This document shows positions 8,206 to 56,765 of a stretch of DNA of 64,000 bases, one piece after another (position 1 is the stretch's first letter; each line of letters opens with the position of its first letter). A program made the position numbers and the translations under genes. Origin of the DNA: Eublepharis macularius (lineage: Eukaryota > Chordata > Lepidosauria > Squamata > Eublepharidae); NCBI RefSeq assembly GCF_028583425.1, contig NC_072793.1, forward strand, positions 101,169,689-101,233,688. The letters run 5' to 3'. The notes beneath the pieces are model-generated. The model saw nothing but the letters and a program-made list of their open reading frames with translations, did not search any database and had not been told where the DNA came from.

Positions 8206-8509
8206 ACCAAATCTAAGAATACTAAATTCTGTAGATAGGAGCCATGAAGGGACAAGACAGATCTTTCTACAAATCTGAGAAAAAAGCCCAAGTTTGGCAG
8301 AAAAATCTGAAATCTAAAAATACTCCAAAACACAGGTGGTAGGAAAGAGTTAAAAAAGTAGGAAAAGGGGTGAGGCAGTTTGTTTGTTTGTTTATGCTAT
8401 TTATAGTTCTTTCTCATTGAGACTCAAGGCATTACATAGTGTAGACCAATACAATCAATGGCTAGGATATTCAATAAACATTCAGTAACCAGTACAGTAA
8501 GGTATAGAT

Positions 8510-8696
8510 CCAGAGGAGTTAGCCGTGTTAGTCTGTAGTTTACAAAATAGTAAAAAGTCCAGTAGCACCTTTAAGACTAACCAACTTTACTGAGGAATAA
8601 GCTTTCGAGAACCACAGCTCTTTTCATCAGATGGTTCTCGAAAGTTTATGCCTCAAAAGTTGGTAGTCTTAAAGGTGCGACTAGACTTTTTACTAC
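8510..8696. mobile_element. Foldback element with one hammerhead-like core
   Basis: Arms about 8549-8613 and 8632-8695 are inverted copies. The minus strand holds CTGATGA (8630-8624), helix-forming GAG...CTC, and GAAAGCTT (8606-8599). Flanks tacagtaaggta and tacaatagggta are a possible old target duplication. Same family as 45634-45840. Confidence 0.65.
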
Positions 8697-12412: not shown

Positions 12413-13840
12413 CCAAGTAGATAGTACTTTGCAGGCTGCTTTTGGCCTGTTTAGCACTGCTTCCACAGTGATAGATGCATGGCTCTGGCCAGTCTGAAAG
12501 GACACAAAAGAACAGCGATCCACTTCTCAGAACCTTAACTCAGCTGGAAAGAAAACATCACTCCAAAGGGCCTCAACATAACTCTGGCGGTTTACCAATG
12601 GGAGGGATGTCTGCCAACTGGGGGAGAGATGGACTTCCAGGTTCTTCAAACTGAGGGGCAAGACTCTCCCCATTTAAGCTGCTTGGTTTGGAGAACAGTG
12701 TTATCACCAATGGTATAGTCTCAGATTCCTGAGTAACTTGTCTGGTGAAAATTCATCCCCAAGTTCAACAACTTGGCCATCCCTACACTAAATTATCAAT
12801 ACCGTAAATCACAGCACCTGTACCATTCCAAATGACAACACTATCCAATAATACTCATCTTTGCTTATGAGGCCCTATTCTTTAATCAATATGAGCTTTC
12901 TGCTTTCTCTCCCCCCCCCCAATTCTGGAATGAAACCTCTTTCAAAAGAGGTCCATATTAATGTTCCACATACATTTCCGACCTCCAGAATCCATGCTTG
13001 GTCTAGCATTGTCCTCTGTGCAACCTCTACAATGCTACCTCATTCCCAACCTTACTGCTAATAATCTGTGACTTTCTCTTCAGGCATATCAGAAGCATCC
13101 ATGGAATGCAAGCCCACACAGGGATGGCAGCCAGCCAGTGAGCTTCCCCTCCTCCAATAGGGATCCTACTCACTCGCTTCTGTGGGAGAGGAGGGGCATC
13201 GAACAAGGGTGAGGGCTATGTTTTGTTATTTTGTTAATAACCTGAGCTAAACTGGTATTGAGTCCCTTCTGAAAATCCAAAAGAAAAACAGGCTGAAAAT
13301 TCTAGTTAACCCAATGATGAGGCGAGAAGTCGACAGCTGTGTAAATGCAGACTTGGACACCCCCTCCTTTCTGATCTCTCTCAGCTGTCCCAGGCGGCAA
13401 CTGTCCTATCAAAGAGTCTCAGGGGGCTTATTTAAACTCCCTCTCCTTTATTCTTGACTGGGAGATTGAGTGTCAGGAAAACCTGGGGCTTTGTTTGGAA
13501 GAACAGCATGTTTTGTCAGGCAATACAACAGAAAAGAAGCCATCAAGTTTTTTTAAAATATAAAAGTATACACACACACACAAACACAAACATATATTAA
13601 CGCAAAAACATTAATAAAATGAATAAAAAATAAAAAGGCAAACAAGAAGGAAGAAAAAAACATTGGCAAATCTATACATGGATATCTAGCAAAGATTTTC
13701 AAATATCTACAAATAAGTCTATGCACAGTTGCCTTCGATATGCGATATATTCAGTTGTTGATAAGTTTATAAGGTCTTCAATCCAATGATTTACAGAAAA
13801 TGGGCTTTTATTTTTCCATTGCTGAAGTGTAAGCCTTTTA
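12413..13840. other. No gene recognised
   Basis: Unique-looking sequence with a CA-rich patch near 13570 and a poly-C run near 12915. Nothing coding. Confidence 0.5.
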
Positions 13841-13928
13841 CAGTGCAATCTTAAGCAGAGTTACTCCAATCTAAGTCCATTGAAATTAATGGGCTTAGAC
13901 TGGAGTAACTCTGTTTAGGATTGCACTG
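13841..13928. mobile_element. Palindromic MITE, 88 bp
   Basis: Nearly perfect inverted repeat CAGTGCAATC...GATTGCACTG, with internal AGAGTTACTCC/GGAGTAACTCT and TCTAAG/CTTAGA. Further copies lie at 3864-3948 and 20699-20789, with halves near 40925, 43347 and 53527. No clear target duplication. Confidence 0.75.
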
Positions 13929-14099
13929 TCAGCAACTGTAAGGGTACAGAGGGTCCATTTCTGTTTACTATCAGTTAGATTCCAAGAGACAGGTAAGTAG
14001 TTTAACAGTGTGTTAACATCCTCAAAAATAAATGAGTTTTCTAACACAAAATTGATATATGACTAATAAATTCCTCCCAAAAGAGCTGAATGAGTGTAG

Positions 14100-20789: not shown

Positions 20790-23700
20790 GAATATATTAA
20801 ATAATTTCTGTCTTGTTCAATATTGGGGAGATTATGACAGAAATTATTGTTCCAGAATAGACAGTTTGAACATAATCGTTCGCTCTAGCTGGCTTTACTG
20901 TTTTGACCACAGTACAGTCATTTTGTAAAATATGACATCTGCTACTTGCCAAGAGTTAAGCTTTCAGACTGAGAAGAGTTTTACTCCAGAATGTTTAGAA
21001 GAACAATTCACACCCTTTGTTATACTATTCTGTAAACTGTTCAGTTACACTGTTCAGTCTGCCCAACAGGATGCAGTGGGAAACTTATAAATCTCATCCG
21101 CCTTCTCCCTATTTCCTGTCTGGGACTAACTCTGTACATTAAATTGCTTCATCACATTTGAAGTGAAGATCAAAATGTTCTTGATGTCTCAAAACCATCT
21201 GATTTATGAGGCTACTATATATATATCTTAAGCAGAGTTGCTCTGTACATACAAGTGTGGATTTTCCTTGAAAAATAGAATGTTATACAATAAATGCTGG
21301 AACATTAGATATGGCGGGAAACAGGTACTTGTACTCTCTTTCAGAGAGAAACAAAGGCTATCTGCAACTGTATAACTTTTTAGAAACTCTTCTAATTTCT
21401 GAGCATTTTGATTTTTACTTCCAATGGATACTAGCTCAAACTCCAAAAACTCAGTACTTTTGACTGATACTCGTTTTTTAATTTTTATATGCCCAAATGT
21501 ATGTTCTCTCCCATTTTTGTTTTTTTAAGCATAGTAATTTTGCCTTCGGTTATTCTTAAATTTGTGCAGCTATTAAACTGCTTTCTGCTTGGAACAGAGG
21601 TTGGAATGCTTCTGTATTAAATCAGTACATATGCTTTACGTAATCTAGCCTTGTTTGTGTTAACCAGATTTCTTTACCTTCGTTTATGTACATCTGTGGT
21701 ATTGTGATGGCAGCTATTTTAGTTAAGCATCACTATAAAAGTCCATTAGTTTGCAGTCCAATCCTATCCATTTTTTACTATATTCCACATTTTCCCAACT
21801 GTTGGCTCAACTAAATCAGCCTTTAGTTTTTCGACAGACAGTAAATCATAGTGAGTAAAGTTCATGACATGAGGTGAGGAAGCTCCATGGTCAAGAAGGT
21901 GGTAGTTCTTGTTAATAGTGCATGAGTAAGTGGAGCTGTTCTACATCGTCATCACTAATCTGATGAAGGGACTCTCAAAAGTTCATACTCCGGAAATCTA
22001 GTTGGTCTATAAGGTGCTATTAGACTCAAGTCTCGCTTGTCTGCTACAGACCAACATGGCTGCCCACCTGAAACCATCACTAATCTAGTTGGCAAGAGGT
22101 GCTGAGGTCCTCTCTAAAGGTGCTAGGAACAATGCTTTCCCTTACAGCATATCCATAGGAGGGAAGGTGGTGTTTCTGGGTGAACACAATGAGCCATGTG
22201 CTCTATGAGTTGATTTGCTGCCTGTCTACATAACAGTTGAAGGCCAGAGCACAGAGATGTCTGCTTGACTCTGTGGGCCCAAGTAGGGATCTCCTGTGTC
22301 ACATCATACCTGTACTTTTACAGAAAGCTCCTCCGGAACATCAGGCTAGGTGTTAAAGCCTCAAACTAGGAATAAGATACGTAGCCTCTTAGAAGCCCAC
22401 CCACGTTGCCCCTATGAAGTTTTTAAATGTGTACAGATAATCAAGGTCTTTATCAGTAACTTCAAAAACAAAATTACACATTCTTGAACACAAAGTCAAT
22501 AAAAACATAAAATCTGTCAAACGTTTAATATAAAAGATGGCCTGTTCAAATAAAATTTGTTTAGTCGTTTCTACGAATTTCAATGTGAAATTTATTTTTA
22601 CCCTTACAGTTTCCCAGAAGTTCTCAAATGTGTTCCATATTTCTAATTCTTCCATAGGGATTAGTTTTCTATCTTTATATCAAATATAAAAGCCAACTAA
22701 TAAATTGTTTTCCATCCTCTAATAGCCGGCAAGCTAATTGGTAGCAGTGATGTCAGTTTCCAAAACTGTGCAATAAGTAATTTAGCTGCCAAAATATTTC
22801 ATTATACAGTTTGTGTCCTAGCCAAAGATGATCTTAAATAAATAAATAAATCCTGGTAACATTAGCATTCTTCTTGTACCTTTTACTTAAAGCAGAGGTT
22901 TCCACTCCACCAAGCATCTGCAATTATTATTGTCCAACAAGGAGTCTGCAAATCAGGACTGACATATTGGCAGAGCAAGAACACCAGAAATTGTGGAGGA
23001 AAGGGAGCATATTGCAGATAGTTAACTCCAATTGAAATGTTTCCAGGCTAATTCCCCTACCTGCACTTCCAATAACATTAATAGAGAAAATAAATAATAA
23101 AAGATAATGCTTTGATTGGCAGCAGCACAGCAGCTATTGTCCATATCAGTTTACCACACACAGATATGCCTCAACCATAGTCCCTCACATGGTCTGCACC
23201 ATGATGCTTTGAGGAGAAAAATTTCTTCCCTTCATTTTTCCAGAGCAGGTGATCAATATAACTCTGTACATGTGACTGAGACACAACCTCATTAAGCATT
23301 TAATCCCATTTATGCCCTGATCCTTTGCTGGTGACCACAGTGACTGGGCTGAGACCTGACTTAGTCTGGACATTTCTGAGGTGAAGTCCATGATGTAATG
23401 GCATTGAGTATTGATTTGGTATCTGCCCTGTTGAGCCTAGAATCCTGGGGCAGGTTTTTTTTTGGGGGGGGGGGAGTGCCAGAGTAACTTGCTATGAAAA
23501 ACAAAGGGCTCTCAGTAAACTACACAAGGCTGACTTTTGTTTACTTCTGTCATAAAGCAGTAGAGATGAATTTTTTTAGGAGAAATGCAGCTCTGTGGTT
23601 ACAGAAGGAGGACACTGGAGAGTCCCACTCCCCCGCCCCTGATAGCCCTCAGAAAGAAGGAACATGAGAAAACTGTGGTGGGAATGCCATTGAGTTTTGA

Positions 23701-31503: not shown

Positions 31504-31580
31504 GGACTCCTGTGGCACTTTAGACTCACCACATTCAACATAAACTTTTCCGGGCTGAAGCCCCTTTCTTCAGATTTAGC
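31504..31580 (-). mobile_element. Short hammerhead-family retroelement, antisense
   Basis: Minus strand: CTGAAGA (31573-31567), helix II GGGC-TTCA-GCCC (31563-31552), then GGAAAAG, and the shared tail GTGAGTCTAAAGTGCCACAG. Flanked by gaataaac and gaataaaac, a probable target duplication. Confidence 0.6.
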
Positions 31581-31835
31581 GGGAATAAAACCGTGTTAGT
31601 CTTCCAAGAGCCCCCAGACCTCAACAGACTAGAGGGCCGCCCGCGGGGCATTGTTGTTTTCAACTTGGCCTCCTGCCTTCCCGGGACTCCCAGGCTCCCC
31701 AGTGCGACGCCGAGGGATTTGAGCGGGGGTCTCTCTGTCTCTCTCCCGGGAAAGCCAAAAGTTCTGGCCGGGCATCGTCTGCTTGTCTCCAGCCTGCCGG
31801 ATCTGCGATCTCGGGGCTTCAGAAGACCCCGCGGG

Positions 31836-44895: not shown

Positions 44896-45070
44896 GAAAG
44901 ATAATTGCATATAAAATGGACCCATTTCCTTGCCCAGCATTTCAAATACATCCTTTATGAAGCCCATTTTAATTATTTATTTAGTTACTTCATTTATACT
45001 CAGCTTTTCCCCCCACTGGGGATCCATAGTGGTTTACATCATTCTCCTCGCTTCTATTTTATTCTCACAA

Positions 45071-45173
45071 CAGGTATCTGAAGAAATGAGCTGTGACTCA
45101 TGAAAGCTCATACCTTACCACCAATTTTGTTAGTCTTATAGGTGCTACTGGACTCTTGTTCTTTTCGACTGTC
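45071..45173 (+). mobile_element. Hammerhead-bearing short retroelement inside a SINE
   Basis: Starts GGTATCTGAAGA and ends GGACTCTTGTTCTTTT. It splits a SINE, and tcacaac occurs on both sides (about 45064-45070 and 45172-45178), a likely target duplication. The body TTGTTAGTCTTATAGGTGC is shared with copies at 8510, 45634 and 31505. Confidence 0.7.
45073..45114 (+). ncRNA. Hammerhead ribozyme-like motif, three helices
   Basis: Helix I: GGTAT (45073-45077) with ATACC (45110-45114), five perfect pairs. Core CTGAAGA at 45078-45084. Helix II: ATGAG (45086-45090) with CTCAT (45097-45101). Then GAAA (45102-45105) and GCTC, a fit to the NUH cleavage triplet. Helix III could form only between two molecules through the AGCT stretch. 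Structure is inferred from pairing. Confidence 0.55.
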
Positions 45174-45633
45174 ACAACCTTGTGAGGGGTTTAGGCTCGC
45201 CCAGCCAGCTCTCCTGGTAGAACGGGGAAATCATCCTGATATCTAATTCGAACTCAAATATTTACTAATACAACACGTCTAATTCCTTTTAAGCCAGAAG
45301 TAATGTTGTTGAATTTCTTTCAAAATACAGGTATACCCCAGTTAAGACTTAACCAAATAGCATTTTTATGTGCCACAGCCTGCTTAGTCATTGCAGCAAC
45401 TTGGAAGAGCAGTAAACTGCCTTTGTGACCTGATTGGTACAAGAAGATATGGGACATATTTGTAATGAAGAAAATTCTAGATCAACAAAGGCATATCGAG
45501 TCAGATTAATGTATCTCTGATTTTGCTGAAACATGGCAACCTGTAATTGACTTTATAGCAAGAAATGAGGCAACATTTCACTTCACCCACCCCAAACAGT
45601 TCGTACTTTTATGATGTAGATATATTGCTAGCT

Positions 45634-45840
45634 CCAGAGGAGTTAGCCGTGTTAGTCTGTTATAGCAAAATAGTAAAGAATCTAGCAGCACCTTTAAGAC
45701 TAACCAACTTTATTGTAATACAAGCTTTCAAGAGCCACAGCTCTCTTTGTCAGATGCATCTGACAAAGAGAGCTGTGGCGCTCGAAAGCTTATACAACAA
45801 TAAACTTGGTTAATCTTAAAGGTGCTACTGGACTCTTTAC
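45634..45840. mobile_element. Foldback element with hammerhead-like cores on both strands
   Basis: A 207-bp inverted repeat around GATGCATC (45753-45760), flanked by tatattgctagct (45621-45633) and tatattgttagct (45841-45853), a 13-bp duplication with one mismatch. Each arm has CTGACAA, a GAG.../...CTC helix and GAAAGCTT: plus strand 45760-45791, minus strand 45753-45722. Starts CCAGAGGAGTTAGCCGTG, as does the copy at 8510. Confidence 0.75.
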
Positions 45841-45853
45841 TATATTGTTAGCT

Positions 45854-55629: not shown

Positions 55630-56517
55630 TAAAGCATCTCCTTCCTCCGTGGCCGAGGAAGGGAGGACAGAGGGAGAGCAATTATCACCTCACCACCCCT
55701 TCGTGTGTGGCATTCCTCAGGGTTGGGCTGGAGTGTCATCAAAATGCTGATGACACCCAGCTCTATCTGTTGATGGGCGGCTGTCTGGACTTCACCCCAG
55801 ATACTTTAGCCAGGGCCTTAGAGGCCATGGCTTGTTGGTTAAAACAGAGCCGACTGAAACTGAATCCCATGAAGATGGAAGTCCTGCACTTGTGGCGTGG
55901 GCTCTGGGATCCACCTCCCAACCCTGGATGGGGCACCACTGGTACCTGTACCAGCAGTGACAAGTTTGGGTGTGGCCCTGGATGCCTCCTTGACAATGGA
56001 GGTCCAGGTCATGGCGGTGGCCAGGTCTGCATTTTTTCATCTTCGCCAGGCCGGGCAAATTGTCCCCTACCTCTCAACCAACAACCTAGCTGAAGTGATC
56101 CATGTAATGGTCCCCTCCCGGTTGGACTACTGCAACTCGCTCTATGCTGGGCTGCCCTTGAGACTGCTCCGGAAATTGCAACTGGTCCAGAGTGCAGTGG
56201 CGTGCATCCTGGCCAGGACTTCAGTGGTTGAGGCGGGCAAGCCATCTAAGGTATTTATATCAGCCTCCTTCCATGGGGGAAGCATACCCCCCCCCCAGTT
56301 TCTGTAACCATCTATAACTGGCCACCCTGCCCCACGGGTTATCTAGGCTTAGTGGATGATGAAATATGTGCGTCACTGTTTTTAGAAATTTATATTATTA
56401 TTGATGTTTATATTGCACCTAAATTTATTCTATTTTATTATACATTTTAAAATGTTGTGATCCACTCTAAGCCTGCTTGCGGGGAGAGTGGAATAAAAAT
56501 TAAATAATAAATAATAA
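55630..56517 (+). mobile_element. L2-clade LINE fragment with internal deletions
   Basis: Reads CHQNADDTQLYL (changed YADD box), LKQSRLKLNPMKMEVLH, VTSLGVALDASLTMEVQV and RLDYCNSLYAGLPLRLLRK, then jumps to the 3' UTR (GCTTGCGGGGAGAGTGGAAT, tail to 56517). The stretch between motif B and motif C is missing, as is much of the C-terminus. Confidence 0.8.
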
Positions 56518-56519
56518 AG

Positions 56520-56765
56520 ACCAGCCAAACTATCCCCCCAAAGCTCACTGGAACAGATGCCAATAGCACTCCGTCAGGGTCGGGAGGTGGAGAACCTATT
56601 AACCCATGCCCCAGATGCAGGATCTCTGTCTTCATGGGATTCAGTTTCAGTCAGCTCTGTTTTAGCCAACCAGTCATGGCCTCTAAAGCCCTGGTTAAAG
56701 TATCCAGGGCAGAGTCCAGCTGGCTGTCCATCAACTTGTTTAGAGCAAGCAGATATGCATAAAGG
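56520..56765 (-). mobile_element. L2-clade LINE fragment, antisense
   Basis: The minus strand reads LDTLTRALEAMTGWLKQS and then, in another frame, MKTEILHLGHG, the segment after the YADD box. It lies directly after the tail of the sense copy, in opposite orientation. Confidence 0.65.

Follow-up and report, generated by a model that had tools for sequence, protein, structure and literature searches.

Minimal, dimer-type hammerhead ribozymes are established in Penelope-like elements (PLEs), where they are thought to work as dimers (PMC7761336, PMC6155905, PMC6466107), and the initial annotation of the locus described here had correctly named them. The association of the ribozyme with PLEs, including that of Anolis, is already known. 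With the published minimal type I hammerheads of PLEs (Cervera and de la Pena 2014; Lunse et al. 2017), as described in papers citing them, the repeats in this study share the core, helices I and II, the lack of a proper helix III, dispersal in thousands of copies and, for some, a position in pseudo-LTRs (pLTRs). No difference in kind is apparent; the sequences here are particular subfamilies, which have an extra A before helix II.

In PAc, the Poseidon element of Anolis carolinensis, reverse transcription (RT) begins at an internal position, 111-118 bp into a frame whose start lies at helix II; the classical tail of 30-40 bp corresponds to the stretch separating two start sites; and both target strands are cleaved and extended (PMC11167929). 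The Anolis ribozyme needs its protein in order to cleave, and insertion in vitro does not require the ribozyme (PMC11167929), which would agree with the uncut templates suggested below. The repeats in this study appear similar to PAc in the hammerhead at the frame start, the internal RT start, the two start sites, and the extension of both strands. They differ in that 36 of 40 two-arm insertions hold one arm of each kind, whereas in vitro the two strands did not differ in start site for PAc (PMC11167929), and in that an intact element with the unit was not found here.

For the Penelope families of Adineta vaga, PMC3846280 describes inverted head-to-head pLTRs whose junction is palindromic, a 31-bp tail that is optional on one inverted pLTR, and target-site duplications of 8-10 bp. 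Inverted pairs, a junction palindrome, a one-arm tail, and target-site duplications are likewise seen here, and the optional tail is already published (PMC3846280). The Adineta vaga arrangement is attributed there to self-priming, probably on an antisense template, whereas two-strand priming is proposed here. Searches of the open-access literature brought up no paper reporting a strict pairing of a short and a long arm over many insertions.

The window analyzed in this study is a stretch of 64,000 nucleotides from Eublepharis macularius, in which dispersed short repeats of subfamilies S1, S2, and S3 carry a hammerhead-like motif. Copies were scored with R1, a family covariance model built on 76 gapless copies, and by a strict scan (CTGANGA, helix II of at least 4 bp, GAAA, UH, and helix I of at least 4 bp). 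A flank match score of at least 9 was taken as a sign of target-site duplication. The following features were identified at 45.07 kb:

45072..45171, + strand: single-arm S1 unit, a putative leader copy (S1 match positions 1-104; 5' end at helix I, 3' end tail-less)
45065-45071 and 45172-45178: flanks of this unit, TCACAAC (flank score 7, under the counting cut-off of 9)
45073..45114, + strand: complete minimal hammerhead motif (direct sequence reading, strict scan, R1, and family motif scan)
45073-45077/45110-45114, + strand: helix I, 5 bp
45078-45084, + strand: core, followed by a bulged A at 45085; GAAA at 45102-45105
45086-45090/45097-45101, + strand: helix II, 5 bp, with a 6-nt loop
45105..45108, + strand: self-complementary AGCU in place of helix III (A15.1-U16.1 with GC between)
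after C45109, + strand: predicted cleavage point (UH triplet present)

Read directly, positions 45073-45114 are GGTAT-CTGAAGA-A-ATGAG-CTGTGA-CTCAT-GAAA-GC-TC-ATACC, confirming the complete helix I (GGTAT/ATACC) that had been annotated. The strict scan gave this one match in the window (45078, + strand) and none in 40 block shuffles; the bare CTGANGA showed no enrichment there (47 matches vs. 40.3 +/- 6.6 in shuffles). The extra A between the core and helix II is conserved, and we know of no such A in the textbook hammerhead core. Helix III had been thought to be replaced by the self-complementary AAGCTT; a self-complementary piece is indeed present, but it is AGCU (the 45.07-kb copy reads AGCTC). 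Action as a dimer via a self-complementary helix III would be plausible. The hammerhead was the lowest-energy monomer fold for none of the 45078, S1, and S3 copies tested (-8.9, -9.2, and -0.4 kcal/mol vs. -11.6, -11.6, and -6.4 kcal/mol for the respective lowest-energy folds), and helices I and II were present in the lowest-energy monomer fold of an S2 copy.

The other copies in the window are decayed relatives of the motif at 45.07 kb:

45629..45759, - strand: long (tailed) S2 arm of a head-to-head insertion, decayed hammerhead motif with a CTGACAA core
45754..45850, + strand: short (tail-less) S2 arm of the same 45.63-45.85-kb insertion; the arms join at CAGATGCATCTG
45623-45633 and 45843-45853: flanks of this insertion, TATTG(C/T)TAGCT (flank score 8, under the cut-off of 9)
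8505..8633, - strand: long S2 arm, retaining an intact core and GAAA, with damage to helix I at the junction (flank score 6)
8638..8695, + strand: truncated short S2 arm, head to head with the arm at 8505..8633
21952..22080, + strand: S3-like (third-subfamily) unit with a decayed motif, 3' limit set by eye
31530..31581, - strand: distant decayed member, placed by eye on the basis of the sequence downstream

All 13 scored core places were matched in four window copies (45070+, 45752+, 45710-, and 8587-, with G or A allowed at the G8 place), and the exact core within the strict motif occurred in one window copy only. R1 scored these four copies at 60-65 bits (E 1e-13 to 1e-15); since all four are among its 76 training rows, only the tests of 21952+ (28.0 bits, E 6e-5, on 21952-21996) and 31530- (11.6 bits, E 1.9, not significant) are independent. 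All six sites of the initial annotation were read directly, and its observation is confirmed. With some corrections: the 45760+/45753- pair forms a single head-to-head insertion, and the 8.6-kb copy likewise consists of a full arm plus a truncated arm. The window contains two-arm insertions at 45.63-45.85 kb and 8.50-8.70 kb, and a single arm at 45.07 kb. Among the window copies, helix I is complete in the 45078 copy alone, with one pair broken in 45752+ and 45710- and two in 8587- and 21952+. The variants CTGACAA, CTGATGA, and CAAAAG are compatible with CpG decay. Because the flank scores of the window insertions (8, 7, and 6) are below the cut-off of 9, their target-site duplications are likely only by analogy. 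Elsewhere in the window, we noted a compact palindrome with 42-bp arms (13840-13929) and an inverted pair of 133 bp, 82% complementary and 701 bp apart (55769-56735).

Rfam hammerhead models expect a helix III, and the 45.07-kb-type variant is one without it. The comparison with Rfam covariance models that had been suggested as a check went against the initial annotation, with no hammerhead family found in the whole window at the gathering threshold, or at E<=10 in four stretches including near-consensus S1 and S2 copies. The E-value hits at 45715-45798 came mostly from microRNA models of Rfam, several of which matched below threshold on both strands; we took these as a false lead that apparently arose because the insertion is a near-perfect palindrome.

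The repeat occurs genome-wide, with first-look candidates numbering 4230 and 1158. Forty were scored from each, and the loci studied were the best-scoring candidates rather than a random sample (2 of the 40 scored among the 1158 were not fetched); L001 and L009, which are the window itself, were removed ahead of family counts. S1 (GTATCTGAAGAAGTGAGCTGTGACTCAC/TGAAAGCTCATAC) and S2 (ATGCATCTGACGAAGAGAGCTGTGGC/TTCTCGAAAGCTTATGC) were the dominant subfamilies among the copies fetched. Between S1 and S2, helix I changes from GTAT/ATAC to GCAT/ATGC and helix II from GTGAG/CTCAC to GAGAG/CTCTC. Covariation was assessed in 76 copies, picked on core places only, against 500 shuffles. Helices I and II had 33 double-changed cells vs. 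10.6 in shuffles (0 of 500 as high), 91.8% paired cells vs. 86.7%, and a covariation score of 0.261 vs. 0.175, with slid structures at or below 0.098. The number of helix pairs showing double change (5 vs. 4.0, with 165 of 500 shuffles as high) and of pair types (14 vs. 12.6, 86 of 500) was not exceptional, because most double changes trace to the S1/S2 split. The check for compensatory changes suggested in the initial annotation came out in its favor, with an excess of double-changed cells in helices I and II, which co-vary between S1 and S2, though from few independent events. Additionally, 39 strict motifs were found in 76 family loci, compared with none for three scrambled cores, and none were found in 33 other PLE-related loci. 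AGCU was present in all 39 strict motifs, for which the scan fixes A, U, and H and leaves GC free, and its columns were 94-100% kept in 65 S2 arms taken without motif selection.

Units of the family were found downstream of PLE endonucleases. PF01541 matches above the cut-off were identified in L050, L067, and L072, each with a unit downstream. L067 and L072 each hold a PLE-type GIY-YIG endonuclease fragment with an intact unit behind it in the same orientation (R1 scores 65.0 and 65.3 bits), and in L050 a decayed unit of the third subfamily lies on the endonuclease strand (23.4 bits). These three endonucleases, all accompanied by the unit, are of a distinct type with YIGQT or YIGHT; we take this type, and the source clade, to be of the Penelope/Poseidon type. 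The survey covered 32 endonuclease places with 3' flank out of 78 GIY-YIG matches listed, 10 of the 32 having been picked for a short profile match like that of L050. A clear unit was absent at 29 of the 32, where two weak R1 matches were seen (L039, 20.0 bits; L055, 18.8 bits) and the remaining places had no R1 match at E<=1. The PLE loci first considered as sources (L039-L062 except L050) yielded no unit, and their lineages were set aside.

L067, L072, and L016 have a common sequence from just past the endonuclease region through the unit. In L067 and L016 this includes GATATAAG, in which the first T of TATAAG is 30 nt ahead of GTATCTG. The TATA segment has been lost from L072 and is kept, as such or as near variants, in the solo S1 copies L077, L098, L099, L100, and L106. 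The endonuclease copies with a unit are truncated, and none of the loci examined yielded an intact element with the unit. As regards a reverse transcriptase domain in the same element, L073, upstream of L067, offers 78 aa only, which match the L060 PLE at 29% identity close to the endonuclease end of the latter. L060:3171-5339 contains an open 722-aa PLE frame with RVT_1 and GIY-YIG domains; no hammerhead motif or unit was found in this lineage, including the L060 3' region. Its PLE relatives in L043 and L059 are mostly 95-97% identical. The endonuclease link at three loci, together with the pseudo-LTR anatomy, supports the descent of the repeats from a Penelope-like element bearing the motif. 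What had been an earlier reader's guess at a ribozyme-bearing element thereby becomes an identified element.

Units were mapped in 79 insertions, and 78 were counted after exclusion of L002, which had no cluster. These comprised 40 two-arm head-to-head insertions, 28 single arms, and 10 other patterns, with no tail-to-tail two-arm insertion. Thirty-six of the 40 two-arm insertions combine a short arm (end ~93) with a long arm (end ~131), the remaining four being one short-short pair and three with an arm of other length. Short+long pairs thus make up 36 of the 37 classifiable insertions (p about 3e-10 if arm ends are independent, with the two classes defined after arm ends had been seen). A flank score of at least 9 was reached by 36 of the 78 insertions, and by 22 of the 40 two-arm ones, compared with 47 of 6006 mismatched flank pairs. 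Insertions for which one or two arms were mapped contain 114 arms; 93 of these start at unit position 1-4 and 21 elsewhere. No arm of the 114 starts within 2 nt of the predicted cleavage site, so there is no sign of cleaved RNA being integrated, although finding loci through whole-unit similarity disfavors copies that start at that site. Of the S1 arms, 49 begin at unit position 1-4; the predicted start is the limit for 37 of them (three being short S1-labelled fragments in L028, L112, and L114), and 12 continue into the promoter. Another 13 S1 arms have their start deeper in the unit; the promoter segment is reached in 12 of 42 S1 insertions. A G directly precedes the S1 stub start in 24 of 37 stubs (e.g., window 45073, L006, L092, and L094), and 11 of the 12 S1 copies extending upstream have T at that place; this excess of G could stem from copying of the mRNA cap or from microhomology with targets that end in CAG.

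The S1 units start 30 nt past the TATA segment and end at apparent internal RT starts, and therefore look like leader copies. We consider it highly probable that the repeats were copied from the 5' leader of a Penelope-like retrotransposon, in the following order. A TATA box in the pseudo-LTR would start the mRNA about 30 nt downstream, at helix I of the minimal hammerhead, with (G)GTATCTG and ATGCATCTG as predicted mRNA starts. The protein of the element would then begin reverse transcription internally, about 93 or 131 nt into the mRNA, and run to its 5' end. Copies would be primed from both nicked target strands, and the two cDNAs would join head to head within one target-site duplication, often via the self-complementary ATGCAT of S2 helix I. 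Promoterless stubs would decay neutrally, and the hammerhead would be kept in the source element as a weak, dimer- or protein-assisted self-cleaver. Observed here are the motif, the covariation between subfamilies, the association with the PLE endonuclease, the TATA distance in S1, the arm ends, and the duplications; the transcription start and the dual priming are what we infer.

Arm junctions range from a 6-bp overlap to a 25-bp gap. An overlap of exactly 6 bp, seen in ten insertions, would follow from two-strand priming and subsequent joining at ATGCAT; two-strand priming leaves the short+long arm rule unaccounted for. Snap-back copying of one RNA as the origin of the second arm is disfavored, as arms of the same insertion are only slightly more alike than those of different insertions (91.5% vs. 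90.9% identity for S2; 91.6% vs. 89.9% for S1). At variable sites, concordance within one insertion was 15/20 vs. 0.55 (S2 site 26) and 8/10 vs. 0.60 (S1 site 23). This comparison is not decisive, because decay since insertion blurs it. The genome stores many natural PLE integration products, which record insertion unusually clearly. Their arm ends map the probable mRNA start, two RT starts, and the junctions, making both PLE insertion and the purpose of the ribozyme testable on natural copies.

The source elements might also keep the motif because it binds protein, pairs two template RNAs, or serves some further purpose unrelated to cleavage, its likeness to a hammerhead being inherited by an RNA that no longer cuts. 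We regard this as unlikely. The lack of arms starting at the cleavage site, the extra A in the core, and the weak monomer folds would fit such a role, as would the Anolis ribozyme mutants that inserted normally and the Anolis RNA-seq without ends at the cut site (PMC11167929). Against it, the UH triplet and GAAA are retained, the Anolis homologue cuts when its protein is there (PMC11167929), and core sites are modestly less divergent than others. In 65 S2 arms, whose majority sequence retains the hammerhead core, eight non-CpG core sites were 1.3% divergent, compared with 5.3% at 48 others in the first 60 positions (p 0.027) and 4.2% at 80 other non-CpG sites of all 92 (p 0.037). A first run on 71 arms (1.1% vs. 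7.1%, p 0.003) included six S1-like arms; without these, the lower core divergence suggests a second, modest sign of selection. Core conservation was not judged on copy set A1, because membership required at least 12 of the 13 core places. The two CpG core positions were 42% and 15% divergent in the same 65 arms. It is likely that source elements kept the core and that inserted copies lose it, largely through CpG decay.

The same short+long make-up in 36 of 40 two-arm insertions could alternatively be taken to mean that a head-to-head fold-back element, with the inverted dimer as master, is transcribed and inserted whole. This seems improbable, since the junctions vary from overlaps to gaps, arms are truncated at many points, and most polymorphic sites have no short- or long-arm-specific variant. 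The arms differ clearly at S2 site 91, which lies at the junction with the target, and a weaker tendency is seen at S1 site 23 and S2 site 31.

A more speculative and improbable proposal is that the helix-III-less hammerhead serves to pair two template RNAs via AGCU and the palindromic helix I, with cleavage as a by-product. If so, one protein dimer would prime a cDNA on each cut target strand. This would account for the occurrence of one of each start site in two-arm insertions, for same-insertion arms hardly more alike than others, and for uncut RNA alone being seen integrated.

A spread of retrozyme-like units as small circular RNAs released by two hammerhead cuts was also considered. Type I motifs are common to metazoan retrozymes and PLEs (PMC7761336), and tandem units do occur. 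L016:1597-2098 has nine head-to-tail motif units, mostly ~52 bp apart, in one S2 insertion that sits in the 3' end of a PLE having an S1 unit; L017:1289-1495 has three tandem composite units of 76 bp, each made up of a hammerhead piece and a short inverted one; and L079 has three whole short arms in tandem. However, such runs of at least three units are confined to these 3 of 78 insertions, and the arms start predominantly at the predicted mRNA start and, in a sample that disfavors such copies, none of 114 at the cleavage site, which makes this explanation very improbable. Chance resemblance within an ordinary short repeat, with which the unenriched CTGANGA and the silence of Rfam would agree, is scarcely credible given the covariation, the absence of matches with control cores, the PLE endonuclease link, and the lower core divergence.

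In another PLE lineage, L059:1721-7188 contains two PLE copies head to head, with 2284-bp arms that are 99% complementary. This pair is a young, large-scale counterpart of the inverted two-arm arrangement.
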